The notes beneath the pieces are model-generated. The model had not been told where the DNA came from, did not search any database, and saw only the letters and a program-made list of their open reading frames with translations. DNA of 26,074 nt from a bacterium (GTDB lineage Bacteria; JAHJDO01). The stretch is from the NCBI GenBank assembly GCA_030652805.1, contig JAUSPT010000052.1, positions 1-26,074 on the forward strand, given 5' to 3'. Below, in pieces: positions 699 to 21,846 of the stretch. A program made the position numbers and the translations under genes. Each line of letters opens with the position of its first letter. Positions within the stretch are counted from its first letter, which is position 1.

Positions 699-1508
699 AA
701 CTTCTCTTATTGACCCAAATTTGAACTCGCCAATTAGTCTTTTCAGTCGCTCTTTAACATTACCAATATCTGCATAGCACACAAAATTTTTAAGAAATGG
801 GATCTTTTCCAGCTTTGGATGTTCGAGGTCAATCTCCCATGGATGAACATATATGAGTGCAGGAATATTCTTTTTGTTTAATTGCTTTATTCTATTTTTA
901 ATATCCATATAAGGCATTAATCTTAATCCCCATCCCCCTCCAATTGGTATGTTTCCCATGAATGTTGGCAGCATAGTAGGTGGAAATTCAATAATTTCCC
1001 CTTTCTTATTTTTGATTAAATGAGGATACGGATTCTCATCCGGCTTGCCAATGATTCTTACAGGATTTATGCTGGAATCATATTTAAGTCCCTGTTCGCA
1101 GAGAATATCAATTGCCCAAAAAGAATCCTCTCTAATTGACCACTCTGGTGCTCTGTACCCAATAATATTTTCTCCAATAATATCTTCTACTATTTGTTTT
1201 GATCTAATCAAATCCTCTCTAAATTCCTCTTTATTTTGTTTATATACCTGTTTGTGATAATAGCCATGAATGGATATCTCATGGCCATATTTATGGATCT
1301 TTGTTATAAGTTCAGGGTTTATCTCTGCAATATATCCCAAAACAAAGAATGTAGCCTTTGCATTACATTCATTTAAAATAGCCAGAATTGTATTTACGTT
1401 TTGGCTAATAGTACTTTCAAAGTGTTTCCAATTTGCTGGATTTTCGGCTTCAGGAATATCGCAGATATGAAACCACTCTTCTACATCTATTGAAAGCGCG
1501 TTAAGCAT
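687..1508 (-). CDS. Polysaccharide deacetylase, XrtA/PEP-CTERM-locus type
   Basis: Carbohydrate esterase 4 (NodB-type) deacetylase of 273 residues. It opens with the short N-terminus typical of the exosortase-associated subfamily (NALSIDVEEWF), with the metal/catalytic Asp at residue 8 and acidic residues at 10-11. The metal-binding HxxxH is H81-G-Y-Y-H85, the GYRAP motif has R119, and a late VHPWEID supplies the last catalytic His. No signal peptide is visible, as is usual for this subfamily, whose members modify envelope or exopolysaccharide glycans. No exosortase or glycosyltransferase gene is in the window. The ATG lies inside a 44-bp direct repeat whose other copy sits at the 3' end of tsaC, so this gene probably once overlapped tsaC and was separated from it by the island. 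Its present upstream sequence offers GAGGG about 12 nt before the ATG. It could be transcribed by read-through from the island operon, 49 bp away. Confidence 0.85.
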   Translation of the reverse strand: MLNALSIDVEEWFHICDIPEAENPANWKHFESTISQNVNTILAILNECNAKATFFVLGYIAEINPELITKIHKYGHEISIHGYYHKQVYKQNKEEFREDLIRSKQIVEDIIGENIIGYRAPEWSIREDSFWAIDILCEQGLKYDSSINPVRIIGKPDENPYPHLIKNKKGEIIEFPPTMLPTFMGNIPIGGGWGLRLMPYMDIKNRIKQLNKKNIPALIYVHPWEIDLEHPKLEKIPFLKNFVCYADIGNVKERLKRLIGEFKFGSIREVLKI

Positions 1509-1511
1509 GAT
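1468..1511. repeat. 44-bp direct repeat, left copy (island boundary)
   Basis: This segment is identical, base for base, to 21803-21846. Identity stops abruptly on both sides (1467 a versus 21802 t; 1512 c versus 21847 t). On the minus strand it encodes the deacetylase start from the ATG through the WF of its N-terminus, plus 3 upstream bases. The two copies bracket 20,291 bp. It contains no strong inverted repeat, only an imperfect palindrome around AAAGCGCGTT. Confidence 0.95.
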
Positions 1512-1557
1512 CTTTTAAATCCCTCAGCATAATAAGCTGTGTCAAAGAAATAAGCTA

Positions 1558-2607
1558 CTACTTTTGGAATTGTCTGTAGTTAAGATGTTCCAGAAAATAG
1601 CAGCACTGGTCGCGGACAGCAGAAAACCATGCATCGCGGCGAGGAGGGTTTGCAACATATTTAAGTTTAGGTTGTTTAATGGGAGAACAGGTTTCTCCAG
1701 AATCAGTATGAGGAACATTTCCTCCGAGCACCTTTTGATTAATCAGGTCTTTTAACTGGTTTTCACTGAATATATTTCCCAGATTATTCAGCACATTATA
1801 TGCTACTGCTTGTCCGCCATGAACAGCAAGAGAAGTATAGATATTGACCTTTATAAATCCATCATCAGGAAGGTAGTTAATATCCTCTGGTTTGAGAGAG
1901 GAAGTACCGTGTAAGCAGAGGATTTTGCCAACAGCTTTACTGATCTCTCTGGCACGATTACCACAATATTTTACACTGTTCACAGTGGCGCGGTGTTCTG
2001 TTCCAACATTAGGCACAATTATATCAACGCCAGTTTGGGCCAAAAACCTTTCGGATTGCTCAACAGTAGTTGCTTCATTTTTTTGTTTATTGCTACCTGC
2101 TTCAAAGATTTCATCAACTGCCCCTTCAACAACCACTTTATCTTTAACTTTTTCAACATATTGAGCAGTCAATCTGATATTTTCTTCAAAAGGTTTTTCA
2201 CTAGCATCACACATAACAGAAGCAAAACAATCAACATACTTTTCCAGAATATCGCCATCCAGCCACGGAAACGCATGATCAAGATGGGGTAGAACCCGAA
2301 GCTTTCGATAAGGACTAGTTTGTCCCATAAAAGCTTTTAAATCAGATAACATGAGATTCATTCCAAGAATAGGGTCTCCACAAACAGTAAGTAGTTTCAT
2401 TTGACCTCTTGGGGGATATCTACATGTCCATGCAGGAATAATTGGAATATCTTGAACTCCAGTAACTTTCCCCATCTCCAGCGCAGAAGCAAGAATTGCC
2501 TCAAGCGTTTCCCTGTCTTCGGCACAGAATGTTGGCAAAGCAATTCCTTGCTCAGAGGTCTCCATATAGATTTCCTTAACATGTGTATAATCAGTGATCA
2601 AAGGCAT
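1558..2607 (-). CDS. Class II (zinc-dependent) aldolase, fructose-/tagatose-bisphosphate aldolase superfamily
   Basis: A 349-residue protein that retains the class II aldolase signature. D110-H111 in the HLDHAF motif correspond to the catalytic Asp and the first zinc His. H205 in VGTEH and H233 in CLHGTSS supply the other two zinc ligands. E161 (VVVEGAVDE) and N255 (VNIYTS) sit where the family binds substrate and phosphate. The local sequences differ from canonical Fba (GTEH rather than GNxHG, LHGTSS rather than LHGGSG), so the substrate need not be fructose bisphosphate; IolJ-like or keto-sugar-phosphate aldolases are alternatives. The gene overlaps the upstream PfkB kinase by 10 bp, which points to kinase-then-aldolase cleavage of a sugar phosphate to triose-level products. 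The ATG has AAAGGAG 7 nt upstream. It is the last gene of the island operon, and no clear terminator follows it. Confidence 0.82.
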   Translation of the reverse strand: MPLITDYTHVKEIYMETSEQGIALPTFCAEDRETLEAILASALEMGKVTGVQDIPIIPAWTCRYPPRGQMKLLTVCGDPILGMNLMLSDLKAFMGQTSPYRKLRVLPHLDHAFPWLDGDILEKYVDCFASVMCDASEKPFEENIRLTAQYVEKVKDKVVVEGAVDEIFEAGSNKQKNEATTVEQSERFLAQTGVDIIVPNVGTEHRATVNSVKYCGNRAREISKAVGKILCLHGTSSLKPEDINYLPDDGFIKVNIYTSLAVHGGQAVAYNVLNNLGNIFSENQLKDLINQKVLGGNVPHTDSGETCSPIKQPKLKYVANPPRRDAWFSAVRDQCCYFLEHLNYRQFQK

Positions 2608-3548
2608 TTATGTCTCCTTTCATTAATAAATGTTAAAACTTGTTCATCGGTTGGTATGGCAGTGGTTGCACCAATGGCCTGCACACAAAATGCTGCTGTT
2701 GCATTGGCAAACAATGCTGTTTTCTCAAGGTTCCATTCTTGCAAGGTTCCATAAAGAAATCCTGCAACAAAAGCATCTCCTGCACCACATGTATCTACTA
2801 CTGAAACTTTGAATGCAGGCAAACGTAGTGTATCTCTTCCATTTCCAACTAACACGCCGTCTTGCCCGAGCTTAATGCCTACTACTTTTGCACCGGCGTC
2901 AAGGTAGAAGCGCAACTGATCTTCAGGACTTCTAAGTCCTGTTATATGCACAGACTCATCATTGTTTGGGAGAAAGATGTCAAGATGCGGCAGACATGGG
3001 AGTATCAAATCAGCAATATCTTCGCGTACAACAGGATCAAGACTTGTTAGAATCTTATTCTGTTGCGCAAAACGTAAAAGTTCAACTGTTGGCTTGCCGT
3101 CTAAAGCAGGAAGAAGTGAGGCGCCAGCTATATGAAATACTCGTGAACACTTTATAATATCTCTGGATACCTCAGTATTGGAATAAGTACGATTAACTCC
3201 AAAGGTATGAAAAAGACGTCGCTGGCCATCTTCTGGTATCATGACAAAGGAAAAGGCTGTATTGGTTTCATCCGAGCAACACACTCCTGAAGTATTCACT
3301 CCTTCTTTCCGGAGAGACTGCACCATGATATCTCCAAATGAATCTTTTCCAACTTTGCCAAGAACACTGACTCGCATACCTAGCCTGGCTCCATCTACCC
3401 CTGTATTATATGCACAGCCACCAGGGTGTATCTCCATGGTATCGAAATATCCGGAAGTACCCTTTTTCGGAAACCTTTCTATGGGTTTTCCAAAAACATC
3501 AAGTACCAGGATGCCTAAACAAGCAAGATCATATTTCTTGTTTTTCAA
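2598..3548 (-). CDS. PfkB-family carbohydrate kinase
   Basis: Ribokinase/PfkB fold of 316 residues. The N-terminal signature is G43-G-C-A-Y-N-T-G, matching the GGA-N substrate-binding region, followed by ARLG. The C-terminal signature DTCGAGDAF (252-260) carries the anion hole and catalytic base D258. The family phosphorylates sugars or deoxysugar acids (ribose, fructose, 2-keto-3-deoxygluconate, 5-dehydro-2-deoxygluconate); the substrate cannot be read from sequence. Translation appears to begin at TTG 3548: no ATG or GTG lies in frame nearby, and a GGAGG sits about 15 nt upstream, which is long spacing. The stop overlaps the start of the class II aldolase, so the two products are probably made together and act in sequence. 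Confidence 0.87.
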   Translation of the reverse strand: MKNKKYDLACLGILVLDVFGKPIERFPKKGTSGYFDTMEIHPGGCAYNTGVDGARLGMRVSVLGKVGKDSFGDIMVQSLRKEGVNTSGVCCSDETNTAFSFVMIPEDGQRRLFHTFGVNRTYSNTEVSRDIIKCSRVFHIAGASLLPALDGKPTVELLRFAQQNKILTSLDPVVREDIADLILPCLPHLDIFLPNNDESVHITGLRSPEDQLRFYLDAGAKVVGIKLGQDGVLVGNGRDTLRLPAFKVSVVDTCGAGDAFVAGFLYGTLQEWNLEKTALFANATAAFCVQAIGATTAIPTDEQVLTFINERRHKCL

Positions 3549-3569
3549 ATTTTTTGTTTTATTCCTCCG

Positions 3570-4346
3570 TTAATACATTACTGCGCCACCAGATATATTT
3601 ATGGCCTGTCCTGTAATATATGCTGCGTCATCACTGGCAAGAAACACAGCAGTTTTGGCAACATCCTCCACTGAACATAATCTTCCAATTGGAATTTTAC
3701 TCTCAAGATATGGCTTAACCTGTTCGGGCTTCATATTGCGTTTTTTTGCATAATCATTAATCATGCTATCCCACAATGGCGTGAACACAACGCCTGGACA
3801 AAGAGCATTGATCCTAATGCCTGTCGAAGCGAATTCAACTGCCAGAGATTGAGTAAGACCAATAATGCCAAATTTACTGGCACAATAGGCTTCATACTGA
3901 CTATTACCTACTTTGCCGGACTGAGACGACATATTCAGTATAACTCCCTGCTTGTTAGCCAACATGTGCTGGATTGCCACTTGACATCCATTAAATGTAC
4001 CTTTGAGATTAACCTGCATGGTTTTATCCCAAATTTCCTCTGTGCATTCTAAAAAAGGCATGACATAGGAAATGCCGGCATTATTTATCCATATCCCGAT
4101 ATTCCCAAATTCTTTTTCAATTTTATCTGCTGTGGTCATAACCTGTTCCTGCAAAGAAACATCAAATGCCCATGCTTTTGCTTTTCCTTTTGAACTACAA
4201 ATCTCATTAGCAATTTTTTTTGCGCTGTCAAATTGCAGATCTGTAACCGCTACACAGGCGCCTTGTTTGGCAAATTCCCGACATATCTGAGCACCAATGC
4301 CACTGCTCCCACCTGTTACAACAGCGACTCTATCTTTAAGCTTCAT
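3570..4346 (-). CDS. Short-chain dehydrogenase/reductase (SDR)
   Basis: Classical SDR of 258 residues. The cofactor-binding TGGSSGIG is at 11-18 and NNAG at 88-91, with catalytic S140/S141 and the Y154xxxK158 pair in YEAYCASK. The C-terminus is the usual YITGQAINISGG. A D-L pair after the second beta strand (VTDLQFD) favours NAD(H). It likely oxidises or reduces a sugar or polyol hydroxyl. The start overlaps the alcohol dehydrogenase stop as ATGA, with GGAG 6 nt upstream. It is one of four SDRs in the operon; the reaction is not predictable from sequence. Confidence 0.87.
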   Translation of the reverse strand: MKLKDRVAVVTGGSSGIGAQICREFAKQGACVAVTDLQFDSAKKIANEICSSKGKAKAWAFDVSLQEQVMTTADKIEKEFGNIGIWINNAGISYVMPFLECTEEIWDKTMQVNLKGTFNGCQVAIQHMLANKQGVILNMSSQSGKVGNSQYEAYCASKFGIIGLTQSLAVEFASTGIRINALCPGVVFTPLWDSMINDYAKKRNMKPEQVKPYLESKIPIGRLCSVEDVAKTAVFLASDDAAYITGQAINISGGAVMY

Positions 4347-5392
4347 TTTTTACTCCATGGATATACTAGAACTTTAAGAGATTCTTTGTTTTTCATAAGT
4401 TCAATCCCTTCATGTATTTCATCAAGAGATACGTGATGTGTTATAATTGCTTGTGTGCTAATTTTCTTTTCAGCCATCAGACTCACTGCTTTACGAACAT
4501 GTTCCGGCCGAGAATCAGATGCTCCAATAATGCGGAGTTCATTATAGTGAATTATACGGCTGTCAAAAGTTGTATCAGATGCACCTTTTGGAAGGCTTGC
4601 AAAAAGACTGACAGCACCACCTTTGCGAGCATACTGTAGAGACGATTCCTGTGCTTCCCGGCTGGGTGCACAAACTATTACAACATCTGCTCCGAGTTCA
4701 CTTGTAGCTTTTTTCACCACATCAGAAGTATTTTCATTAGTGCCATCAATTACAGTAACATCTCTTAACCTGCGCAGCATTGACAACCTTGGTTCAGAAC
4801 GCTGTACGATCATAACATTCTTTGCTCCTCTTGCTTTAGCAAGTTCAGCATGAATAGCACCTAACGGCCCGCCGCCAATAATAAGAACGGAATTATCTGC
4901 CTTTAATCCAGCGAGTTCCTGGGCGTTGATTGCGCAACTGAGAGGTTCACTCAATGAAGCAGTCTCGTCCGGAACTGAGTCTGGAACTTTAATCACATTA
5001 CCGTCTGAAAGTGCCTGTGGAGGAATTGTTATATATTCAGCAAAAGCGCCGTCAAAATCATAACTGATAGGCATGGCATTAGGACACATATTGCTCAGAC
5101 CAAGAGCGCAAATTTGACAGGTTCCACATGCAATTGTTGTAGCAAGTGTAATGCGCTCCTTAACAGAAAATCTCTCAACATCTTTCCCCACATGCACAAT
5201 ACTGCCTACCATTTCATGCCCGATTATTCTTGGAGGATGACAACGAGGATTTCCCACAGTTGCCAGTTTCAGATCAGTACCACAGATTGCGCAGCAATGC
5301 ACCTTGACAATCATGTTTTTATTCGTTGGCTCTGGATCAGGTCTCTGCTCAACACGGATATCACCTGGTCCATAATAAACAGCTGCTTTCAT
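4343..5392 (-). CDS. Zinc-dependent alcohol/sorbitol dehydrogenase (MDR superfamily)
   Basis: Medium-chain dehydrogenase of 349 residues from the ATG at 5392. Catalytic zinc ligands are C37 (CAICGTD) and the H59-E60 pair in GHE. The structural zinc site is complete: C89, C92, C95 and C103. The Rossmann glycine motif is IIGGGPLGA. Family members (threonine, sorbitol, galactitol-phosphate and related dehydrogenases) oxidise polyols or amino alcohols with NAD(P). The frame extends upstream to a TTG at 5410, but ATG 5392 is preferred because AAGGAAGAG stands just before it and it starts one base after the DHDPS-family stop. The stop overlaps the next SDR by 4 bp. A keto-sugar or keto-cyclitol role in the pathway is inference. 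Confidence 0.87.
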   Translation of the reverse strand: MKAAVYYGPGDIRVEQRPDPEPTNKNMIVKVHCCAICGTDLKLATVGNPRCHPPRIIGHEMVGSIVHVGKDVERFSVKERITLATTIACGTCQICALGLSNMCPNAMPISYDFDGAFAEYITIPPQALSDGNVIKVPDSVPDETASLSEPLSCAINAQELAGLKADNSVLIIGGGPLGAIHAELAKARGAKNVMIVQRSEPRLSMLRRLRDVTVIDGTNENTSDVVKKATSELGADVVIVCAPSREAQESSLQYARKGGAVSLFASLPKGASDTTFDSRIIHYNELRIIGASDSRPEHVRKAVSLMAEKKISTQAIITHHVSLDEIHEGIELMKNKESLKVLVYPWSKK

Positions 5393-5393
5393 A

Positions 5394-6326
5394 TTATCTC
5401 TTCCTTTCAACGAGTTCTCTTGCTTCTGCGCAAATCTCTATCGCCTTCAATGCGTTGTCTTTAATCCAATCGAGACACTCTCCCTCGTGTTCAAGCAGAA
5501 TATTTTCACATATCCCCCGATGTCTAAGCGCAGTATTGATAAATTGAAAAAGCGTGGATACTTCCGGCCTGCGCGCAAAACAAGAGTTCATCAGATTTAT
5601 TAATTCAGTTATTTTCCCCTGTATGCTGCGAGCAAGATCATATTGCTTTTTCCTTACAGAGCGATAGAGTTCAACAAAAGGAATAGGATCAATATGAATA
5701 AGACTTGCAACAACACCTGACGCCCCGGCAATCAAGGAATCAGCTACAAGATTTTCTTTGCCCTGAAGAAGATAGAAATCATGCGCGTTTTCCAGAAGCT
5801 TAAGCAGGGTTTTAAACCGTTCCATATCAGCGCTGGAATCCTTAAACCCAATGACATTTTCATGTTTGGAAAGGCGTGATACCATTTGCACATCCAGCTT
5901 TATTCCAGCAAATACAGGTATATCATAGATTACAACTGGAAGCGGGCTGGTATCTGCAAACTGTAAAAAGATAGACTCAATTTCTTTGTGGTTATAATTG
6001 AAATAACCTGGTGCAGTCAGAACAGCAACTTGTGCTCCAGCATCTGCCATTGACCGTGTGTTCTCAAGCATTTCAGACAGACCTGACGCCATACAGCCTG
6101 CAAAGAGTGGAACATGTTCGTCAATGTACTGCTTAACAGTTTTGCAGATTTTGGTTTTAGTCTTCAGGTCAAACCACGGACCACGGCCAGTACTTCCTGC
6201 AACAAAAATGCCTTTGCATCCAGATTCCAGAACATAAGTGCATACAGCTTTCAGTCCATCAAGGTCAACTTCTCCTGTTTTTGAACACGGAGTTACAACT
6301 GGTACTAACACACCAAAGTCTTTCAT
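5394..6326 (-). CDS. DHDPS/N-acetylneuraminate lyase-family aldolase
   Basis: Class I (Schiff-base) aldolase of the DapA/NanA superfamily, 310 residues. The carboxylate-binding loop is G44-S-T-G, closer to the GSTGE of N-acetylneuraminate lyase than to the GTTGE of DapA, but with R48 in place of the usual Glu. Y134 (VVIYDIP) and the Schiff-base lysine K162 (GFKDSS) are in place. These enzymes cleave or form 2-keto acids with pyruvate or a related keto acid as one partner. True DapA is unlikely, since the gene sits in a catabolic operon. N-acetylneuraminate lyase, keto-deoxy-sugar-acid aldolase or a dehydratase-type member remain possible. AAGGAGGAG lies 5 nt before the ATG. It is followed after one base by the alcohol dehydrogenase. 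Confidence 0.83.
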   Translation of the reverse strand: MKDFGVLVPVVTPCSKTGEVDLDGLKAVCTYVLESGCKGIFVAGSTGRGPWFDLKTKTKICKTVKQYIDEHVPLFAGCMASGLSEMLENTRSMADAGAQVAVLTAPGYFNYNHKEIESIFLQFADTSPLPVVIYDIPVFAGIKLDVQMVSRLSKHENVIGFKDSSADMERFKTLLKLLENAHDFYLLQGKENLVADSLIAGASGVVASLIHIDPIPFVELYRSVRKKQYDLARSIQGKITELINLMNSCFARRPEVSTLFQFINTALRHRGICENILLEHEGECLDWIKDNALKAIEICAEARELVERKR

Positions 6327-6344
6327 CGCTTCTCCTCCTTATTC

Positions 6345-7124
6345 TTAATCCATTCTCAATCCGCCATTTATTGAAATAGTCTCTCCGGTTATATAAGAAG
6401 CTGAATCAGAGGCCAAAAACAGAACCGAGCCTGCTATATCCTCTGGTTGACCGAGTCTGCCCAGAGCTGTCTGAGATTTCAGCTTTTCAAGATCTTCAGG
6501 TGTTGAGAATTTTTTATGTATATCCGTAAGAATCACCCCCGGTGCAATAGCATTAACTGTAATGCCATAAAGACCAAGTTCCTTTGCCAATCCTTTGGTA
6601 AAGGTGCTCATGCCTCCCTTAGCACTGGCATACGATGTGCCCCCAGGTCCGCCGCCAGACCGGGCAGAGATTGACGAAACGTTAATAATCCTGCCCCAGC
6701 CTTTTTCTTTCATGCCTGGTATAGCATATTTGGAGCATATCATTGTGCTAGTCAGATTGAGAGCCAGAGACTTATTCCAAATATCCATAGGCATCTGCTC
6801 TACACTACTAAGCGCTATCTGAGTTCCAGCATTGTTAATCAGAATATCAACTGTGCTTCCTAGCTGTTTTTCTATCTGATCAAACATGTGCTCAACATCC
6901 TCTGGCACAGTAATATCAGCCTTAATAGCAACAGCTTGGATACCATTAGCTTGAAACTGCTCAACCAGTTCTTTAGCATTTTTTTCACTAGTCAGATAAT
7001 TTACCGCCACAGAGGCGCCACTAGCTGCAAAACCCTTTGAAATAGCCTGACCAATTCCTTTTGCGCCACCGGTAATAAGCACTACTTTTTCTTTGAGATC
7101 AATAGAGATCATATTTTTTACCAT
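6345..7124 (-). CDS. Short-chain dehydrogenase/reductase (SDR), FabG-like
   Basis: Classical SDR of 259 residues with TGGAKGIG at 18-25, NNAG at 97-100, catalytic S150/S151 and the Y165xxxK169 pair (YASAK), ending SYITGETISINGG. The start at ATG 7124 overlaps the previous SDR stop by 7 bp and has GGAGG 9 nt upstream; the internal ATG at 7112 is worse placed. It resembles FabG and glucose-1-dehydrogenase-type members, but sits directly behind another SDR and ahead of the aldolase, so a sugar dehydrogenase role is more likely than fatty acid synthesis. The specific substrate is unknown. Confidence 0.87.
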   Translation of the reverse strand: MVKNMISIDLKEKVVLITGGAKGIGQAISKGFAASGASVAVNYLTSEKNAKELVEQFQANGIQAVAIKADITVPEDVEHMFDQIEKQLGSTVDILINNAGTQIALSSVEQMPMDIWNKSLALNLTSTMICSKYAIPGMKEKGWGRIINVSSISARSGGGPGGTSYASAKGGMSTFTKGLAKELGLYGITVNAIAPGVILTDIHKKFSTPEDLEKLKSQTALGRLGQPEDIAGSVLFLASDSASYITGETISINGGLRMD

Positions 7125-7936
7125 ACTGTTAAGCCTCCATCAATTACCAAATTATGTCCAGTGCAATACGACGATGCTTCTGATGCAAGAAAAACCACTG
7201 CACCTTTCATTTCTTTACCATCTTTTCCCATACGTCCCATGGGAATAGTTTTACTATAGGCCTTTACAAAAGCATCCGGTTGATTCCTGAAAAAACCGCA
7301 TGGACTGATACAATTAACACGGATACCAAAAGGGGCAAGGTACACAGCCATATCACGGGTCATGCTAATGACACCTCCTTTGGCAGCGTGATAGTCAAGA
7401 GTTGCGCCCCCCATATCAGTGTCTTGATAAACCCGTCTATCCTTGCCTATAATACCGACAGTCGACCCAATGTTGATGATGACGCCGGTCTTTTTAGGCT
7501 TCATGGACTTGGCAACCACGTGTTTACTGCAAAGAAAAACCCCAGTAAGGTTAATGCTGATAACCTCTTGCCAGAGTTTGAGTTGACGCTTTTCAAAGGG
7601 TACTGTATCCGGAGTACTATAAACGTTGCCGGCATTATTAACCAGGATGTCAATTTTACCGAATCTCTCCATCACAGCATCAACCATAGTCTCAACCTTG
7701 GTCTCATGTCTCACATCCAATTTTAGTGGCAAAACAGTACGTTTCGTAAGTTCAGATATTTTATGGGCTGAAACCTTGGCGCTGGATAACTTACGGCTAG
7801 TAATAACTACATCAGCTCCAGCTTCGGCAAGCGCCAATGCCATATCAAAACCAAGATTGTGTGCAGCGCCTGTAACAACAGCCACCATGCCCCTCATATC
7901 AAATAACTCTTGAACTGTCGGTCCTAACTTATTCAT
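7118..7936 (-). CDS. Short-chain dehydrogenase/reductase (SDR), gluconate 5-dehydrogenase-like
   Basis: SDR of 272 residues with a short N-terminal extension before the cofactor motif TGAAHNLG (22-29). NNAG is at 100-103, S158 follows INIGS, and the catalytic pair is Y182xxxK186 (YHAAK). An insertion (KDRRVYQDTDMGGATL) between the Ser and the Tyr is longer than in the neighbouring SDRs and would line the active site. A near-ideal AAGGAGG precedes the ATG. The basic residues after the second strand (TSRKLSSAK) suggest NADP(H), unlike the SDR at the operon end. It overlaps the next SDR and so may be translationally coupled to it. The gluconate 5-dehydrogenase likeness is a family-level guess. 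Confidence 0.85.
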   Translation of the reverse strand: MNKLGPTVQELFDMRGMVAVVTGAAHNLGFDMALALAEAGADVVITSRKLSSAKVSAHKISELTKRTVLPLKLDVRHETKVETMVDAVMERFGKIDILVNNAGNVYSTPDTVPFEKRQLKLWQEVISINLTGVFLCSKHVVAKSMKPKKTGVIINIGSTVGIIGKDRRVYQDTDMGGATLDYHAAKGGVISMTRDMAVYLAPFGIRVNCISPCGFFRNQPDAFVKAYSKTIPMGRMGKDGKEMKGAVVFLASEASSYCTGHNLVIDGGLTVW

Positions 7937-7972
7937 AATGCAACCTCCTTGTAAAACTAAAGTACACGTACC

Positions 7973-10803: not shown

Positions 10804-10859
10804 GTTTGTTTCCTCTTTTAAGTATATGCCATTTTCAGGCTTTCACAATTAGAAATAGT

Positions 10860-10946
10860 TTAACTAAATATCTCATTCATATATTTGCAGTCGGTCTTTC
10901 CGCAACGATTAGCAGGTAGGTGACTGAATATCTCAGGAGGATTCAA
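10860..10946 (-). pseudogene. Decayed DegT aminotransferase fragment (28-codon remnant)
   Basis: Read on the minus strand from TTG 10946, this encodes a 28-residue peptide containing EIFSHLPANRCG and KYMNE and closes at a TAA at 10860-10862. It matches residues 14-40 of the DegT protein downstream, which has the same EIFSHLPANRCG. A strong GGAGGAGG stands 8 nt before the TTG, inside the sialidase-like gene, so the remnant may still be translated. It overlaps the sialidase-like 3' end by 14 bp. The true DegT N-terminal extension is absent, so the copy began internally. It fills most of the gap between the sialidase-like and M81 genes. Confidence 0.8.
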
Positions 10947-12252: not shown

Positions 12253-12268
12253 TTTCTCCCTCCATTTT

Positions 12269-12712: not shown

Positions 12713-12714
12713 GC

Positions 12715-13866: not shown

Positions 13867-13870
13867 ATAA

Positions 13871-14665
13871 TTAATCCTCCACAAGTCCCGTCTTTGCAAA
13901 TCCTCCATCGACAAATAGGTCATTTCCACTGATGTAGCTGGAAGCGTCTGAGGCAAGAAATATAACCGGTCCAACAAGTTCGGTTGATTCACCCCAACGT
14001 TTTAAAAAAGAGTGACTTACTCGCTGGGCTTTAATCCTTGGGTTTGACCAGCTTCTTTTTGTCATTTCAGTCCTGAAATAACCCGGACACAGATTATTTA
14101 CACGAATATTGTATTTTGACCAATCACAGGCCATGGCGCGTGTAAGCTGCTGCAGAGCGCCTTTGGATGCCTGATAAGCAGGATTATTGGGAAAACCTCG
14201 TACAGCTCCGATGCTGGTAATGTTTATAATGTTTCCTGATTTCTGAGCAATCATGTGCTTGGCAACCAGTTTGCTTAATCGGAAAACCGCTTTTACATTC
14301 ACGTCAAGCGTTTTCTCCCAAGCCTCTTCAGGATAATTTTCAGATCGTTCCTCAATATTTACCGCAGCACAGTTTATCAGAATGTCAATCCTGCCGAATT
14401 CGTCAATTGTCTGCTTGACAAGTTTTTTTAAGTCCTCAGGTTTACAGAGATCAGTTATTATCCCATGGGCTTTTTGTCCACGTCCACAAATTGATTGACA
14501 AGCACGCTTAAGTTCGTCAGATAGGATGTCAGCCAATACCACTGAAACTCCGACAGCAGCCAGTCCTTCCGCAATCGCCCGTCCGTTTCCTCGAGCAGCG
14601 CCGGTGACAATGGCAATCCGTTCATTCAGATTAAACAGTTTTGTAGCATCAAAAGTATTTACCAT
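13871..14665 (-). CDS. Short-chain dehydrogenase/reductase (SDR) with NCAA in place of NNAG
   Basis: SDR of 264 residues with TGAARGNG (21-28), catalytic S151 and the Y164xxxK168 pair (YQASK), ending SSYISGNDLFVDGG. The usual NNAG is NCAA (98-101) and the cofactor loop has N27 where Ile is common. Both changes are tolerated in the family. An Asp after the second strand (LADIL) suggests NAD(H). It sits between two UroD-like genes, so the three probably serve one step or substrate. AAAGGAG stands about 10 nt before the ATG. Confidence 0.87.
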   Translation of the reverse strand: MVNTFDATKLFNLNERIAIVTGAARGNGRAIAEGLAAVGVSVVLADILSDELKRACQSICGRGQKAHGIITDLCKPEDLKKLVKQTIDEFGRIDILINCAAVNIEERSENYPEEAWEKTLDVNVKAVFRLSKLVAKHMIAQKSGNIINITSIGAVRGFPNNPAYQASKGALQQLTRAMACDWSKYNIRVNNLCPGYFRTEMTKRSWSNPRIKAQRVSHSFLKRWGESTELVGPVIFLASDASSYISGNDLFVDGGFAKTGLVED

Positions 14666-14683
14666 ATCAACTCTTCTCCTTTA

Positions 14684-15787
14684 TTATTTATATGTCCCTA
14701 ATTTCCTGGCTTCTTGTAGAATGAACATATAATCCTCAAAACTTACTCCCGTGGGGATGGAATGGTCAGAACTAAAAATATATCCGCCGTTTACCATAGC
14801 CGCCGGAATTTTACGCGTTATTTCATCGACAATGGCTTTTTTATCGTGCATTATACGGGAATTGATGTTCCCGCAAAAACTGAGCTTGTCTCCATATTCT
14901 TTTTTAAGGTCAACTATGTCCATCTCGGTAGCCTGTAGTGGATTAAGAACATCTATGCCAATCTCTATATACATTGGGATGATACTCTTGATATCTCCAC
15001 AGGAGTGAAGAAAAAAATCTATATTGTGAATTGTAAGAAACTCACCTAATCTCTTATAGGCCGGATAAAACAATTCGCGGATTACTTCAGGAGAAAACAA
15101 TAAAGCATTATTTCCGCCAAGGTCATCCAAAAGGAAAACTCCGTCTGGATGAATCCCGTTATCCAAACCTTTTTTAATCACTTCCATAAGAAAAGTTGTG
15201 TAAACCTCAATAATATCCTCTATCATTTCTTTGTTCAAACATAAATCCATTAAAGCATTTTCATATCCCCTCAACCTCCATATAATTTCCCACGGTCCAT
15301 ATACACGCACAGTGATGTAACGACCAGTGTCCTGTTTACGGGCAAATATCTCTGTGGCTTCCCGCCATGTTGGCCATACTTCAAACGGTTTGAAATAACT
15401 TACTTCATGAATTCTGCTGCGCTGGCCAAAATCAACGTGGAGACGCTCTTTATAACGTTGCCAATCATCTATATTTTTAATAGGGTGTTCATTATAATGA
15501 ATTCCTGGTATCAATTTATTTCTGGTTGCTACGAAACCGTATTTATCGGCTACTGTCATTGTTTCATCATTCTCTTTTATCAACCTTTCTTCAAACCGCA
15601 TTGAAGAGTCAATAAATAAGTCAGTACAATCATAACCAAACAAATCTTCCTGCGCAGTTCGGCTTTTAGGAAGTCCATCTTTAAGCCATCGGCTCTCTGT
15701 ATCTACAAATAATTCATCACAATAAAAGGGTATCCTATCAATTGGTCTGTGTCCCATGGCTCCCTTTACCCGCTCTCTTCCGTTCAT
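14684..15787 (-). CDS. Uroporphyrinogen decarboxylase-like (UroD/MtaA superfamily) protein 1
   Basis: A 367-residue protein with the typical opening of UroD-like methyltransferases (MNGRERVKGAMGHRPIDRIP). H261-x-C263 is in FFLHSCGDI, followed by SFCGN (C305). The HxC motif and lack of the HemE arginine loop point to the corrinoid/CoM methyltransferase-like branch rather than haem synthesis. The spacing of C305 is shorter than I would expect for the third MtaA zinc ligand, so the metal site may differ. GGAG lies 7 nt before the ATG. Neighbours are a class III aminotransferase and an SDR. Whether it transfers methyl groups or decarboxylates cannot be told from sequence. Confidence 0.82.
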   Translation of the reverse strand: MNGRERVKGAMGHRPIDRIPFYCDELFVDTESRWLKDGLPKSRTAQEDLFGYDCTDLFIDSSMRFEERLIKENDETMTVADKYGFVATRNKLIPGIHYNEHPIKNIDDWQRYKERLHVDFGQRSRIHEVSYFKPFEVWPTWREATEIFARKQDTGRYITVRVYGPWEIIWRLRGYENALMDLCLNKEMIEDIIEVYTTFLMEVIKKGLDNGIHPDGVFLLDDLGGNNALLFSPEVIRELFYPAYKRLGEFLTIHNIDFFLHSCGDIKSIIPMYIEIGIDVLNPLQATEMDIVDLKKEYGDKLSFCGNINSRIMHDKKAIVDEITRKIPAAMVNGGYIFSSDHSIPTGVSFEDYMFILQEARKLGTYK

Positions 15788-15803
15788 TTATGTTCTCCGG
15801 TAT

Positions 15804-17228
15804 TCATTTTTCTGCATCTGCATATTTGCGCCAGACATCGACAAATACCATAAAACAATCCCGTATTACATTAACAGCCTCTAAAGCCGCCTCTAGATCT
15901 ATACATAGCGGCGGCGTTATCTTCAGAAATCCCCGGCCTGTGGGAAACATCATCACCCCACGACGAACCGCTTCATAAACAATTGCATCCGCAAGACCTA
16001 TATCACAGACATACTTTCCGTCTTTGATCTTTTTAAAATGTGCTGAAATAAATAAACCTTTGCCATGAATAGAAAAGAAATGCTCGGGAAATTCATTCTG
16101 CAAATTTTTCAGTTGTTCTAAGACCGCAGCGCCTGTTTTTGCCGAAGCGTCTATCAGCTTTTCTTCTTCTATAACCTCCAGACAGGCCAGAGCCGCGGCT
16201 GCACAAACGGGGTTGCCGCTGTGTGTACTGGACATTTGACCCGGAGCAGGTTCATCCATTATCTCTTTAGTGCCTATTACTGCGGAAACAGGCAAAGACG
16301 ATGTTAACCCTTTACCCAATGTTATTAAATCTGGAATTATGCCAAGATGTTCAAAAGCGAAAAACTTGCCTGTCCTGCCACAGCCTGCCTGAATTTCATC
16401 AAAGGTCAGAAGTATTTTGTATTCTTCTGCCCATTTTTTTAGAGCTTTACAGAAATCTTTTGGCATTGGCCATGTGGCCCAGCCAGGAAGAGGTTCTGCA
16501 ATTATACCTGCAATTTTATCAGGACATATACCTCGCTTTTTTAAATCATTTAAACATTTTTGAAAACAAAACTCACCGCAGTTATCATACTTTTCTTTTC
16601 CCCACGGGCATCGTGGACAAAAAGGAAATGGAATCTGGTAATGGCCGACCTGTTCTTTTTGAATCCAGTCATCAGCATTGGGAAAGCCGGCGGCAAGTTG
16701 AGCTCCCAGCGTTCGGCCGTGATAAGAATCCATAAAGCTGAGTATACCCACCTTGTAGCTGGATATGTTTTTGCCGTAACGCCGCATAAGCGACATAGCG
16801 CATTCAGTGGCTTCTGTGCCGGCACTGAACAGAAGCGCTTTGGAATCGGCAATAGGCGATAAAGCTACCAATTTATGCAACAATTTGCTTCGTGCTTCTG
16901 CCGGAAAAGCATAACTAAAAAGCAATTTGCGGTCTACAGCCTCATGGATAGCCTGTCTGATTTTAGGATGGTTGTGTCCCGCATTAGCCATAACTATTCC
17001 GCTGGTAAGATCAATCCATTGATTGTCATAACCATCGCGTACCAGAAAACCCTCTGCCTCTTTCCAGAGGATTGGAGGCATACCCTGCATAGAAATAGGC
17101 TCCACTGCTCTCAATGCCTTAATTGCAGGCAGTGAGTCAGGAGCAGGGATATCCGTTACAATTTTGCGCCATTTACTCTGAATCTTTTTGACAGATTGTG
17201 CTTTTAACTCAGTTACTGAAAGTGCCAT
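15804..17228 (-). CDS. Class III PLP aminotransferase (4-aminobutyrate/acetylornithine type)
   Basis: Fold-type I omega-aminotransferase of 474 residues. The cofactor Lys is K306 (ITLGKGL), the DEIQ acidic pair is at 277-280, and FSAGTEA (134-140) and SYHGRTLGA (168-176) bind the phosphate and ring. A cysteine cluster (C204, C207, C217, C221, C225) sits in an insert before the large-domain core; similar clusters occur in a subgroup of GABA-type aminotransferases. Substrates of the class are terminal amines or amino acids with 2-oxoglutarate or pyruvate. It starts 19 bp after the class IV aminotransferase stop, so two transaminases of different folds are made together. The exact amino donor is unknown. 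Confidence 0.87.
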   Translation of the reverse strand: MALSVTELKAQSVKKIQSKWRKIVTDIPAPDSLPAIKALRAVEPISMQGMPPILWKEAEGFLVRDGYDNQWIDLTSGIVMANAGHNHPKIRQAIHEAVDRKLLFSYAFPAEARSKLLHKLVALSPIADSKALLFSAGTEATECAMSLMRRYGKNISSYKVGILSFMDSYHGRTLGAQLAAGFPNADDWIQKEQVGHYQIPFPFCPRCPWGKEKYDNCGEFCFQKCLNDLKKRGICPDKIAGIIAEPLPGWATWPMPKDFCKALKKWAEEYKILLTFDEIQAGCGRTGKFFAFEHLGIIPDLITLGKGLTSSLPVSAVIGTKEIMDEPAPGQMSSTHSGNPVCAAAALACLEVIEEEKLIDASAKTGAAVLEQLKNLQNEFPEHFFSIHGKGLFISAHFKKIKDGKYVCDIGLADAIVYEAVRRGVMMFPTGRGFLKITPPLCIDLEAALEAVNVIRDCFMVFVDVWRKYADAEK

Positions 17229-17247
17229 TTTAATTACCCTTGTCTAA

Positions 17248-18243
17248 TCATTTATCCTTTGTTTTCACGCCAAACCTGTACATTGTGGTTCCCTTATATG
17301 CAGTGGAACCCATTTCTTCCAGGTATTGCTTTGCCTGTCCCATTATATTAAGACCTACCATTTTGTCCCATGCTTTAAAGAGTTTTTTTGTAATAGTACC
17401 CATTTTATCATCACCTAACTCATATCCATTGACCTTTACGCATGGCATCATAGTAAAAGCGGTTGAAGTGAAAAAGGCTTCATCTGCTGTAATAGCATCA
17501 TATGTATTAAGATTACATTCAATAACCTCAATACCAAGCTCTCGAGCAAGCTCTATTGTATACTTACGCCTTATTCCTCGTAATATGTTCCTTGGTTCTG
17601 GAGTAAGCAGTCTCCCATTTTTAACAATAAAAAAATTAGAACCTGTTCCCTCAGTAATAAATCCATCAGGGTCAAGGAGCAGGGCCCATGCGTTCGGATC
17701 ATTAACAAGTGATACTTCCAGATTCGCCATGAGATAGTGCATTCTACTTCTGTTTTTGATCTTTGGTTCCAGAAGATCTGCTGGAATTGCCCTCTGTGAA
17801 GGGATAACAGCATGCACACCAGTCTCATAAAGAGGAGCTAAAGGAGCAATTGTCCATTTAAATGGGAACACGCTTATAATTACCGTTGGTTCAACCTTGC
17901 CGCCAAACACATGCGCATACATAGATAAAGGGCCACGCGTGACATCTATCATCACACGGTGTTCATCTGTCTGACCGAAAGAATGCTTATTTGCTTCAAT
18001 GGTTGCATAAACTGCATCTTCCATGTCTTTAGGCGTCATTTTTATGGGAATCCTGAGTATTTTGATGCCTGCATACAAGCGCTCAATATGCTCACCTAAC
18101 TTAAATTGAACTCTATTAAAAGATCTGGTCATATCAAAGACCATATCCCCAAACATAAGAGCTGAATCAAAGATTGAGATCTTTGCCTCAGCCTCTGGTA
18201 CAAAATTGCCATTAAGATATACCAACCGTTTTTTCTCAGGCAT
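17248..18243 (-). CDS. Class IV PLP aminotransferase (branched-chain/D-amino acid type)
   Basis: Fold-type IV transaminase of 331 residues. The likely Schiff-base lysine is K163 in EPKIKNRSRMHY, and the conserved glutamate is E198 in ITEGTGSNFF, which binds the pyridine nitrogen. The N-terminus (VYLNGNFVPEAEAKISIFD) is typical of the family. The C-terminal 35-40 residues extend beyond the usual fold. Branched-chain aminotransferase, D-amino acid aminotransferase or aminodeoxychorismate lyase activities are all possible; the catabolic context disfavours folate synthesis. AAAGGA stands about 9 nt before the ATG. The 104 bp between it and the GH127 gene show no convincing gene or terminator. Confidence 0.86.
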   Translation of the reverse strand: MPEKKRLVYLNGNFVPEAEAKISIFDSALMFGDMVFDMTRSFNRVQFKLGEHIERLYAGIKILRIPIKMTPKDMEDAVYATIEANKHSFGQTDEHRVMIDVTRGPLSMYAHVFGGKVEPTVIISVFPFKWTIAPLAPLYETGVHAVIPSQRAIPADLLEPKIKNRSRMHYLMANLEVSLVNDPNAWALLLDPDGFITEGTGSNFFIVKNGRLLTPEPRNILRGIRRKYTIELARELGIEVIECNLNTYDAITADEAFFTSTAFTMMPCVKVNGYELGDDKMGTITKKLFKAWDKMVGLNIMGQAKQYLEEMGSTAYKGTTMYRFGVKTKDK

Positions 18244-18347
18244 AATGTTGTTCCTTTCTTTTCTTAAATTTTCTTATCTTTCGTCTCACCTGGCTCATTG
18301 CAGTTTGAACCTGTTTCCTTTCTCGCAGATAGCAGGATCATATAAGG

Positions 18348-20303
18348 CTACCATCGGGGGATTTCAGAGACGAGATTGTGGGTAACTTTTTTCATAGGCG
18401 TGTGTCCTCCCTTCTTCAGATGGTTGCGTCGGTAGAATTGATAGTGTTGCGGCTTTGTATCACGGGGCGAGATATCCACTACAGTGTTGCCACGCACCTG
18501 AATCGTGTATTGCGTCTCAAATTTTGTTTTTGCATGCGCCGTACGATTGAAAGTCTCTTCCGCCATAGGGAAATCCAACTCGACGGTGTCACCCGGCTTC
18601 AGATTATTAGTCAGGCAGTATTGCCCTGCGAAACTAGTGTGTCGGTCAATGCCGTTCACCTGCAAGTGAACGCAGTTCAAGCGCACCCAGGCAGGAATAC
18701 GAATAAAAATACGGCGGCATTTCTTATTGTGAACAACAACCTTGCCTTCATAAGGAAGGTGGCTTTTCACGTCTAGCCATGGCGCAGCGCGGTTCAGTAG
18801 TAGATTCACTTGCCCGTCTTCGCCACAAATACGAGTGATGGCTTCCCAAGCATAGAATAGTCCGCGGGCGCCGTTGGCCGTGCAGCACTGCATAGTCCGA
18901 TCGTTTGTGGCGCTGGTGGGAAGCAGATAGGATGTAAAGATGCCGATTGAACGCTTGAGCACATTGTCAGTGCAAATCAGGTTGTCTGTGCGATTCCTGT
19001 CTTCTTCGGAGAGGAACGTCTGCGTTGCTCTGGCGGTGGCGGGCAATCCACTGTCATCCTTCTCATTGCTGCCAATATCGTTGTATACAAGTCCCTGTAT
19101 ACGTTTGAGCTCCGCCATGTTAGTAATCTGGGCTTCGACGAGGTGATTGCGGACAATACGATCCACATCCTCCCAGTAATCTGCGATCCCCGTAACGCTC
19201 ATTTTTATACCCAGCGCCACCAAGTCACCAAGAAAGCATGTTTCCATTTCCAGGCGGCTAGTGCGGTTTACCCATGTCGGGATCCAACCTATTCGGTTGA
19301 TACCCCAACTCCGCATGTGCTCGTAGCTTGAACGTACAAAGTCAACCGCATTACGATCACCTGCTACCAAGCCGTATCTCAGAAGTCCCCGTAGGAAAAT
19401 ACAGCGGCAATGAAAATGGGAATCGACATGTCCCTGTTCATAACCAGCCATCTCGTGGGGGTCACCTGGGTGTCCCCAGAACTTCGGCTTCATGCCAAAT
19501 CGTGCAAACCGTCCTGCTAATTCAAGAGCCTGCTCATCTCCGGACTGATCAGCCCACTTCGACAGTCCCTGAAGGACAGAGCCGAAATAGCCGACGACAG
19601 ACCCCTCGCCTGAATCGTGTTCATCAGCCGGTTCCGTGGTATGCAGCCAACCACCCCTCGGCATGCAGAACGGGTGTCCAACCCTGCAATCCGGAAAGTA
19701 GGCATAGTCATTCTGTTTAATCGCAACCGATTCCATTCCGCGCGCCATCTTACGCAATATATCGTTATAGCATCCATTTTCCTCCGAAAGCTGATTACGT
19801 ACTGCGAGTACGCTCATCAGCCCGCCTGTAGCGGACGGCAAAGCCATGTCAACCTGCTTGGCATTGTATCTGTCGTTGCCGTGACTTGCGTAGGCGCTCA
19901 TGTGCCAGGGTCTCTTGTCCGAATAACGTGCCCAGAAGAGACCATCCTCTTCCACACAGGACAACAGGAACGTGAGTAACCCCTCTTCTTTTTTGCGGTA
20001 GTCCTCACAGCCTGAGGCATAGCGCAACTGGCAGAAATTGTCCAATGTCTTAAAAGCAATTTCGATGTCAACGCCAGAATGCTTCATATACGGTGGATTG
20101 GCGTTCCAGTAGATTTCGAACCATAACAGGTTATCGTCTTCTGGATCGCTGGTGTTTGCCACACCTTGCAGCGCCAGATAGCAGCGTTCGGCAAGGGCTA
20201 GAGTGTCAGGAATGACGGTATCGTAAATAGTGGCCTTGTGACCGGAGCCAATGGTTTTAACCAGATGGTTCGTATTTCTTTGTGCTCTTTTATTAATTTC
20301 CAT
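18348..20303 (-). CDS. GH127-like glycoside hydrolase (DUF1680, beta-L-arabinofuranosidase fold)
   Basis: A 651-residue protein with an (alpha/alpha)6-type domain followed by a beta-sandwich (FIRIPAWVRL ... QVNG ... LKPGDTVELDFPM). The zinc-thiolate site known from GH127 is recognisable: E354-T-C356 (EMETCFLGD) and the cysteine pair C473-C474 (QCCTANGARG). In that family one Cys of the pair is the nucleophile. Sequence elsewhere is divergent, so L-arabinofuranosidase activity is not assured; related GH families act on other glycosides. No signal peptide is present, so it is probably cytoplasmic. It is the first enzyme gene of the operon. The Shine-Dalgarno is weak (GAAGA about 12 nt upstream). 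A possible promoter lies at 20337-20366. Confidence 0.75.
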   Translation of the reverse strand: MEINKRAQRNTNHLVKTIGSGHKATIYDTVIPDTLALAERCYLALQGVANTSDPEDDNLLWFEIYWNANPPYMKHSGVDIEIAFKTLDNFCQLRYASGCEDYRKKEEGLLTFLLSCVEEDGLFWARYSDKRPWHMSAYASHGNDRYNAKQVDMALPSATGGLMSVLAVRNQLSEENGCYNDILRKMARGMESVAIKQNDYAYFPDCRVGHPFCMPRGGWLHTTEPADEHDSGEGSVVGYFGSVLQGLSKWADQSGDEQALELAGRFARFGMKPKFWGHPGDPHEMAGYEQGHVDSHFHCRCIFLRGLLRYGLVAGDRNAVDFVRSSYEHMRSWGINRIGWIPTWVNRTSRLEMETCFLGDLVALGIKMSVTGIADYWEDVDRIVRNHLVEAQITNMAELKRIQGLVYNDIGSNEKDDSGLPATARATQTFLSEEDRNRTDNLICTDNVLKRSIGIFTSYLLPTSATNDRTMQCCTANGARGLFYAWEAITRICGEDGQVNLLLNRAAPWLDVKSHLPYEGKVVVHNKKCRRIFIRIPAWVRLNCVHLQVNGIDRHTSFAGQYCLTNNLKPGDTVELDFPMAEETFNRTAHAKTKFETQYTIQVRGNTVVDISPRDTKPQHYQFYRRNHLKKGGHTPMKKVTHNLVSEIPRW

Positions 20304-20336
20304 GATTTGTCAATATCTTCTTTCGCTTAAGAGTTT

Positions 20337-20366
20337 ATTATAAAACATTTTTGGATTTAGTCTTAA
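20337..20366 (-). promoter_or_regulatory. Candidate sigma70-type promoter ahead of the enzyme operon
   Basis: On the minus strand a perfect TATAAT (20342-20337) stands 18 bp downstream of TTAAGA (20366-20361, 4 of 6 matches to TTGACA) and 34 bp before the GH127 start. The -35 is weak and AT-rich DNA makes chance matches common. Read-through from the regulator promoter is the alternative. Confidence 0.3.
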
Positions 20367-20378
20367 TTCTTTCATGGT

Positions 20379-20537
20379 TTACCTCTGTACTTTCAAATCA
20401 TAACGCCACTCCTGAGACATTCCAGTGAAGGCAGTCCGCGGTCTTTTACTGGGATCGCTTCCCCATTTAAAAAACATCTGGGCAATAATTTGCCTTGACC
20501 AGAACACCAGCAGATAAGCAACAGACCGAATAATCAT
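20379..20537 (-). CDS. Unrecognised small reading frame (52 codons) between regulator and GH127 gene
   Basis: The 415 bp between the regulator stop (20719) and the GH127 start hold the out-of-frame tail of the regulator, this frame and a possible promoter. The frame runs from ATG 20537 to TAA 20379. Its N-terminal 20 residues are hydrophobic (MIIRSVAYLLVFWS), followed by a basic, aromatic tail (KWGSDPSKRPRTAF, EWRYDLKVQR). A GGGAAAGATG run precedes it. I recognise no family. It may be a small membrane-associated peptide, a gene remnant or chance. Confidence 0.25.
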   Translation of the reverse strand: MIIRSVAYLLVFWSRQIIAQMFFKWGSDPSKRPRTAFTGMSQEWRYDLKVQR

Positions 20538-20555
20538 TTTTTCATCTTTCCCATG

Positions 20556-20738
20556 TTATCTATTCTTTGGCTTTGTTTGCGGCTTGAAACGCATCCTGCT
20601 AAAAACAGCATTTATTTTATTCCGCATGATGATGCTCTCACCACCAATCTGGGTTTTAACACATGCTACTGAATTCCGCACTGTTTCCTCTCTATCCTGT
20701 CTAAAAGTATCTCTGCCGCTAATATCTACCGGTCTCAT
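20556..20738 (-). pseudogene. Out-of-frame C-terminal tail of the island regulator
   Basis: The regulator frame stops at TAG right after PSYETGRY, where LacI/GntR-type effector domains normally continue for another 30-40 residues to a final P-x-L-I-x-R-x-S stretch. The shifted frame encodes ISGRDTFRQ, EETVRNSV and then VKTQIGGESIIMRN, which has just that character. One single-base indel near 20720-20735 would join the two. Whether it is a real mutation or a sequencing error cannot be told here. Confidence 0.55.
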
Positions 20739-21726
20739 AAGATGGATAAGCGACAGTAGTCAGAGGCACAGGCAGTGATATGGCTATAAGAGAATCATCA
20801 TATCCGACTATAGCCACATCTTCCGGTACTCTTAAGCCAGCCTCAACTATTGCTTCGTAGGCCTCCTCTGCTATACGGTCGTTAAAGGCAAAAAGTGCTG
20901 TCGGACGATTATTTGATTTCATAAACTCTTTCATATATTTATAACCTGGTCTTTCCTCACATGAACCGGCGAAACGGACCAGTGATTCGTCAAAACTTAT
21001 CCCCCTTTCAGCCATGGCTTTTTTATATCCTTCCAATCTCTGCTCAGCAACAATGTATTTCGGATCTGATATATAGGCGAGTTTTTGATGTCCTAACTCA
21101 ATCAGATGAATTGCTGCCAGATAACCACCCATAACATTGTCACTAATAACATAATCTGTTTTCATCTCAGGGATAAACCTGTTAATAAACACAAAAGGGA
21201 TATCGTCTCTTTGTAGCTGCTGGTAGTGCTCTACAGATTCTGATGCGTGGGCAATAGGGGTAATGATTAAACCCGATATTTTCTGCTCTCGTATTCTTTG
21301 AAGATATTCAACCTGTTTTTCTGCCCGGTCCTCCGTATTGCAAATAATAACACTATAATCCCTATTGTGGGCTACATCCTCAGCGCCTTTGACAATTTTG
21401 GGAAAGACATCGCTCATAATATCAGGAACAATAAGTCCCACGCTTTTAGTCATCAAATGCCCTGTGCCACGGCTTGCCTTTTTTAGATCAGCCACGAAGG
21501 TGCCTTTGCCATGTTCGCGAAACAAAAGACCTTCGTTTACTAACTCTGTATAGGCATGCCTAATAGTCATAGGACTAACCCTGCACATCCTGGTCATTTC
21601 AGGAATTGAGGGGATACGATCAAACGGGTTTAATTGTTTATTTTTTATTTGGGCTTTTATCTGCTGTTTTATCTGGACATATACAGGCAGAGGATTTTCT
21701 TTATCTATACGTATTATATTCTCCAT
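20719..21726 (-). CDS. GntR-type winged-helix regulator with LacI-like sugar-binding domain (AraR-like architecture)
   Basis: Transcription factor of 335 residues as read. Residues 8-78 form a GntR-family winged helix: LPVYVQIKQQIKAQI, the RIPSIPEMTRMCRVSPMTIRHAY recognition region (split here at residue 57), then GLLFREHGKGTFVADL. From about residue 88 (SVGLIVPDI) a periplasmic-binding-protein/LacI effector domain follows, with VDVAIVGYDD-like EDVAIVGYDDS near the end. Such proteins repress sugar operons and release DNA on binding the sugar. The C-terminus stops at ETGRY, about 35 residues early, through a probable frameshift. If real, ligand binding or dimerisation may be lost and the operon could be constitutive or uninducible. 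The start has only AAGAG upstream. It is the first gene inside the island and carries its own promoter at the island edge. Confidence 0.82.
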   Translation of the reverse strand: MENIIRIDKENPLPVYVQIKQQIKAQIKNKQLNPFDRIPSIPEMTRMCRVSPMTIRHAYTELVNEGLLFREHGKGTFVADLKKASRGTGHLMTKSVGLIVPDIMSDVFPKIVKGAEDVAHNRDYSVIICNTEDRAEKQVEYLQRIREQKISGLIITPIAHASESVEHYQQLQRDDIPFVFINRFIPEMKTDYVISDNVMGGYLAAIHLIELGHQKLAYISDPKYIVAEQRLEGYKKAMAERGISFDESLVRFAGSCEERPGYKYMKEFMKSNNRPTALFAFNDRIAEEAYEAIVEAGLRVPEDVAIVGYDDSLIAISLPVPLTTVAYPSYETGRY

Positions 21727-21741
21727 TATTTCTCTTACATT

Positions 21742-21755
21742 TATAGTTATCTATA
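21742..21755. promoter_or_regulatory. Candidate operator palindrome upstream of the regulator
   Basis: TATAG-TTAT-CTATA is a perfect 5-bp inverted repeat with a 4-bp spacer. It lies between the predicted -10 box and the regulator ATG, where a repressor site would block its own transcription. It is AT-rich, so chance is possible; a second copy ahead of the GH127 gene was not found. Confidence 0.35.
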
Positions 21756-21768
21756 TAAGTTGATTATA

Positions 21769-21797
21769 AAAGTAGCATATCTTAGAAAAGCTGTCAA
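21769..21797 (-). promoter_or_regulatory. Sigma70-type promoter of the regulator, at the island's right edge
   Basis: On the minus strand a perfect TTGACA (21797-21792) is followed after 17 bp by TACTTT (21774-21769), and TATAAT comes immediately after. The regulator ATG is 43 bp downstream. The -35 box is only 6 bp inside the 44-bp repeat, so the promoter belongs to the island and drives inward. Confidence 0.6.
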
Positions 21798-21802
21798 GTG
21801 TT

Positions 21803-21846
21803 TGAAACCACTCTTCTACATCTATTGAAAGCGCGTTAAGCATGAT
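21803..21846. repeat. 44-bp direct repeat, right copy (island boundary, tsaC 3' end)
   Basis: Identical to 1468-1511. Here the segment contains the last seven codons and stop of tsaC (21822-21824) and, in another frame on the same strand, an ATG (21843-21841) followed by the first 13 codons of the deacetylase, which are cut off by island sequence at 21802. It therefore preserves the ancestral tsaC/deacetylase overlap. Confidence 0.95.

Follow-up and report, generated by a model that had tools for sequence, protein, structure and literature searches.

Gene-end repeats that look like recombination scars bound a 20-kb sugar-metabolism operon in an uncultured bacterial lineage

Introduction

In an E. 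coli conjugation assay, linear DNA that had re-circularised entered the chromosome by a single crossover and left gene-end duplications of 109-950 bp, by a route that required RecA but no integrase (PMC3240628). The loci described here resemble those products in that part of a homologous gene end is duplicated beside the added DNA. That assay, however, used a laboratory construct, whereas here the events are natural, the cargo is mostly operon-sized, the repeats are shorter and the pathway is read back from the scars.

Homology-facilitated illegitimate recombination (HFIR) is known from Acinetobacter, S. pneumoniae and P. stutzeri, as cited in two papers (PMC3240628, PMC5361080). As those papers present it, HFIR is like the process considered here in that one homologous anchor and one illegitimate joint, possibly with microhomology, add non-homologous DNA. 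The criterion for true HFIR in the E. coli assay was that recipient sequence had been deleted, not duplicated (PMC3240628); unlike such cases, ours show duplication and are known from scars, with neither anchor nor donor seen. An HFIR-like mechanism without an integrase has also been proposed for the orphan immunity-gene arrays of the Vibrio cholerae T6SS (PMC5361080), in which, as here, pieces of displaced genes remain from repeated additions at a single locus. Those arrays are confined to effector/immunity loci, whereas the additions described below lie at unrelated housekeeping gene junctions and carry varied cargo. Finally, 10-18% of the small variable segments between bacterial strains have flanking direct repeats, which have been explained by recombination (PMC2884548); those repeats are mostly shorter than 30 bp, in contrast to the 43-177 bp found here, where the repeats are gene ends and several come from diverged alleles.

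The process is already known. The loci reported here add a record of it that is natural and spans the genome, at junctions of housekeeping genes in a lineage that has not been cultured; a direct precedent for duplicated gene ends at islands lacking an integrase did not emerge from the open-access literature. The stretch analysed (the window, 26,074 nucleotides) is the entire contig C52 of G000, a 102-contig metagenome-type assembly, and was compared within a set of five genomes of this phylum-level lineage, namely G000 and four relatives of the same genus, G001-G004.

Results and Discussion

The 44-bp repeat and the genes it touches

The cargo is bounded by an exact 44-bp direct repeat (Table 1). 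Allowing one mismatch extends the repeat by 3 bases (47 nt, 98%), and its edges are sharp, since the similarity of the two copies drops to 23-32% in the adjoining 60 bases. The number of such pairs expected by chance, from base composition in a simple model, is about 3e-18, and a search of the 2.0-Mb genome that tolerated up to 3 mismatches gave no third copy of the 44-mer. The orphan deacetylase start in the right copy (MLNALSIDVEEWF) comprises 41 nt, at 21803-21843.

Both genes touched by the repeat are complete. The tsaC product is 78-87% identical over its full length to homologues in three relatives, and the DUF3473 profile matches the deacetylase over profile positions 1-129 of 130. An earlier note on this DNA had described 44 identical bases with sharp ends, two genes left whole, a right copy holding the tsaC stop with an orphan deacetylase start, and a left copy forming the start of the complete deacetylase; the analysis confirms it on each point.

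Table 1. Features of the window (contig C52) and of comparable loci on other contigs of G000. Cargo names without a Pfam basis were read from the sequence.
Contig	Feature	Coordinates	Strand	Details
C52	Polysaccharide deacetylase with DUF3473	687..1508	(-)	Whole, 273 aa
C52	Left 44-bp copy	1468..1511	(-)	3 nt 5′ of ATG and first 41 nt of intact deacetylase
C52	Cargo	1512..21802	(-)	20,291 bp; co-directional gene cluster, regulator at tsaC end
C52	Three short-chain dehydrogenases, DapA-family protein, zinc alcohol dehydrogenase, PfkB kinase, class II aldolase	1558..7936	(-)	
C52	DegT/DnrJ aminotransferase	7973..9316	(-)	5′ part (9152-9245) is resident copy of inner repeat
C52	M81/MlrC-family protein	9265..10803	(-)	G+C 51%; inner insert of cargo
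C52	Orphan 5′ end of diverged DegT aminotransferase allele	10866..10959	(-)	94 nt, 81%; scar within cargo
C52	BNR/sialidase-like protein	10933..12252	(-)	
C52	Two URO-D-like proteins, short-chain dehydrogenase, glyoxalase-fold protein	12269..15787	(-)	
C52	Class IV and class III aminotransferases	15804..18243	(-)	
C52	GH127-like protein	18348..20303	(-)	
C52	GntR/LacI-type regulator	20719..21726	(-)	First cargo gene
C52	Right 44-bp copy	21803..21846	(-)	Last 25 nt of tsaC with stop, and orphan deacetylase start
C52	tsaC/Sua5-type gene	21822..22442	(-)	Whole, 206 aa
C22	lolD 3′ end			Cargo: IS110-family transposase gene and TIM-barrel protein
C24	Amidohydrolase-like 5′ end			Cargo: DUF4143 ATPase
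C34	Two-sided junction repeat			
C54	Weaker case			39 nt, 85%
C55	dprA 5′ end			Cargo: phosphate-type (pst) operon
C88	Radical-SAM activase 3′ end			43 nt, 95%; cargo: restriction-modification system
C96	fmt 3′ end			Cargo: RNA methyltransferase-like gene
C99	pepQ 3′ end and efp 5′ end			Cargoes: helicase and Eco57I-type methylase; small toxin-antitoxin-like pair

Cargo of the island

The cargo is a 20-kb sugar-metabolism operon. Its G+C content is 43.6%, against 34.6% and 37.2% in the flanks, but the GC3 of its genes is mixed (0.28-0.56), so that the cargo is not uniformly foreign despite being richer in G+C than its surroundings. Within it, an inner repeat (81% identical) brackets the G+C-rich M81 gene and forms a further scar of the same kind. 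A Pfam search of the cargo ORFs returned no recombinase, transposase or integrase, in agreement with the earlier remark that the block contains no recombinase, and no excisionase, phage or plasmid gene; among the inverted repeats listed, no pair lies at the cargo ends. The cargo is absent from the four genus relatives except for stretches of ~67% identity. No donor of the island was found among 289 sampled genomes, in which the closest relatives of the M81 protein are only 29-35% identical.

The tsaC-deacetylase junction in related genomes

The cargo sits exactly at the junction of tsaC and the deacetylase. In G001, G002 and G004 the tsaC tail still encodes, out of frame, the deacetylase N-terminus over 35-44 nt, and past the tsaC stop a further 9-18 bases keep the deacetylase frame (MLNxLSIDVEE/D). 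In G003 just MLNAL is left of the deacetylase start, ahead of the end of the FAD oxidase. Because the relatives' tsaC tails retain this N-terminus, we conclude that the genus inherited tsaC and the deacetylase as an overlapping pair.

Behind tsaC itself no deacetylase was found in the four relatives, the best match (E 1.7e-10) being a fragment. In its place stand a URO-D gene followed by a convergent FAD oxidase (G001 and G002), the FAD oxidase directly (G003) or gltX (G004), so the spot is one of high turnover. The URO-D gene of G002 was considered as a relic of the island and rejected, its similarity to both island URO-D proteins being weak and partial (30%).

An intact single-copy junction of the two genes was found neither in the relatives nor in GTDB genomes, in a search that left aside the neighbourhoods of 15 distant tsaC loci. 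The empty site is accordingly deduced, not seen. Of the earlier proposal that an insertion split an overlapping pair, the splitting of an ancestral pair gains support from these fossil tails, whereas the single-copy 44-mer joining tsaC to the deacetylase, which was to be sought in relatives, did not turn up. Nor was a donor allele, with tsaC, the 44 nt and the cargo in succession, found.

Similar insertions elsewhere in the genome

Recurring gene ends were searched for in 1.77 Mb of the 2.0-Mb genome, so the count of scars is a lower bound. At least eight further cargoes have the end of a resident gene on one side and an orphan copy of that end on the other (Table 1), one of them inside the island. 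These cargoes are ~0.8-10 kb long and comprise restriction systems, a toxin-antitoxin-like pair, a pst operon and an IS110 gene. The orphan copies measure 43-177 bp at 81-97% identity, and their sequences are unrelated between loci. A single orphan match was obtained for 17 of 2,914 gene ends, and 11 of these 17 lie on the same strand within 30 kb of the parent, where a simple model expects 1.7% per match. At the window and at the other loci alike, a direct repeat of a resident gene end bounds the added DNA and the parent gene is whole. The locus on C88 is a close structural twin of the window, with the radical-SAM activase gene parted from its neighbour by cargo.

The most elaborate arrangement is found on C99, where positions 5888-17809 read pepQ, cargo, efp 5′ orphan, pepQ 3′ orphan, second cargo, efp. 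In G002 and G003 pepQ and efp are adjacent, ~10 bp apart. The two orphans meet at a 6-base microhomology, ATGGGG, common to both parents; through it two alleles that each carried cargo seem to have been joined, one behind the other.

Repeats of other kinds were kept out of the count: a LamG pair on C36, paralogous pairs on C43 and C67, and a dispersed repeat on C32, C26, C34 and C36. The dispersed repeat, ~130-150 bp long and 80-91% alike, lies near gene ends across G000, at 77005-77141, 90207-90346, 93976-94114 and 122093-122242 of C32 and also on C26, C34, C36 and C55. On C43 a 1.3-kb direct repeat (1-1311 and 16327-17649, 93%) bounds ~15 kb of genes.

Source of the orphan gene ends

Where orphans differ from their parents, the third codon position is affected preferentially (28 of 42 differences, p 1e-5). 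With the inner scar of the island added the count is 37 of 60 (p 7e-6); taken alone, that scar has 9 of 18 at third positions, which is not significant. The genes behind the excess are fmt (11 of 13) and that on C24 (7 of 9), and lolD has two differences only. Comparison with the relatives, in which each place was reported with the best-scoring part of the query, shows that pepQ of G002, G003 and G004, and dprA of G001 and G002, match the G000 orphan better than the resident G000 end. From the third-position bias and these better sister-species matches we conclude that several of the orphans at the other loci are pieces of diverged functional alleles and not products of target duplication. Neither the bias nor the sister-species match would be expected of copies made at the time of insertion and decaying afterwards. 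The same test is inapplicable at the window, because its two 44-bp copies are identical.

Orphan fmt and lolD ends also occur in the relatives, where they are known by coordinates (~12874-12969 of C122 in G003; ~6606-6664 and ~9840-9876 of C136 in G002). The fmt-end orphan of G003 begins at nearly the same base as that of G000, which suggests either shared descent or a preferred breakpoint.

Origin of the 44-bp repeat

Taken together, the repeats look like scars left where imported DNA was recombined into the genome, and not like the signature of a dedicated mobile element. For the window, we think it probable that the 44-bp repeat is such a scar, left when DNA from a relative was taken in through homology at one end and illegitimate joining at the other. 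A fragment of a relative's DNA, with cargo adjoining a tsaC tail and deacetylase start, would have entered the cell and paired within the shared gene end, its other end being joined illegitimately. This could have happened by HFIR directly on the linear DNA or, alternatively, by circularisation of the fragment followed by a single crossover into the chromosome. Both neighbouring genes would stay whole because a copy of the shared stretch would come to lie at either end of the cargo. ComEC is encoded in all five genomes, and from ComEC alone the genus is presumed to be competent; Ku was found in none of the five. Against the recombination scar count the length of the repeat, as 44 bp is short for RecA-dependent pairing, the identity of its two copies, the failure to find a donor allele or an empty site in the genomes searched, and the fmt-end orphan of G003 with its start at nearly the same base as in G000.

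Insertion of the cargo at one staggered cut 44 bases wide, with the junction copied in the process, is possible but unlikely, whether an enzyme acted in trans or a staggered break was repaired by fill-in. The exact identity of the two copies and the wholeness of both genes are what such a cut would leave, and G000 does encode tyrosine and serine recombinase-family proteins outside the cargo. A duplication of 44 bp is nevertheless far above those usual for transposases, the repeat lengths at the other loci vary from 43 to 177 bp, the orphans there are diverged alleles and not copies of the resident gene, and the lack of a detectable Ku also speaks against it.

Identical copies and whole genes would equally result if the tsaC-deacetylase overlap had first undergone a small tandem duplication and the cargo had later come to lie between the copies, at a spot that turns over in the relatives too. 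We regard this order of events as quite improbable: it takes two independent events, the second exactly at the border of the duplication, would have to recur at eight or more other loci, and leaves the diverged orphans with their closer resemblance to sister species unexplained.

Very doubtful, in our view, is a dedicated integrase-free system of this lineage that repeatedly adds operon-sized DNA at core-gene junctions, copies or carries the adjoining gene end and always preserves the neighbours. There is hardly any likelihood that the island is a site-specific integrative element whose 44-bp att core restores a gene end, its integrase lost or acting in trans. Direct repeats at the ends, a restored gene and Phage_integrase-family proteins elsewhere in G000 would fit such an element, but the cargo has no integrase, excisionase, phage or plasmid gene and the other scars share no common sequence. 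The att-type core suggested in the earlier note finds no support, each repeat at the other junctions being unrelated to the rest and drawn from the adjoining gene. The search proposed there for the 44-mer beside other cargo gave no further copy in the genome, and the related pattern is absent from viral contigs.

If the repeats are scars of imported DNA, a genome can gain whole operons with no integrase involved and with both neighbouring genes intact. Orphan ends of diverged alleles beside cargo would then be a signature by which additive transfers can be counted from assemblies alone in uncultured bacteria. The att reading would place the island among mobile elements, where it probably does not belong.

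Soundness of the assembly

In G000, 22 prefix pairs and 9 overlap pairs of contig ends have precisely 141 bases in common, from which we take the final k to have been 141. Two of the relatives belong to a cold-seep catalogue that was assembled with MEGAHIT and whose contigs carry k141 in their names (PMC10491686). The earlier note cautioned that a misassembly would look the same, yet it is extremely unlikely that two loci or strains were joined through the 44-mer: although the assembly is of metagenome type and strain mixing could in principle yield orphans of diverged strains, a 44-base repeat shorter than the final k should not join unrelated contigs at that stage, and the efp/pepQ joint shares just 6 bases.

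At the left end of the window, the FAD-oxidase gene (90-698) resembles its relatives only from base 144 onwards. As bases 1-143 of the window are unrelated to them, an interruption or rearrangement of this gene lies roughly a k-mer's length away from the end of the contig.
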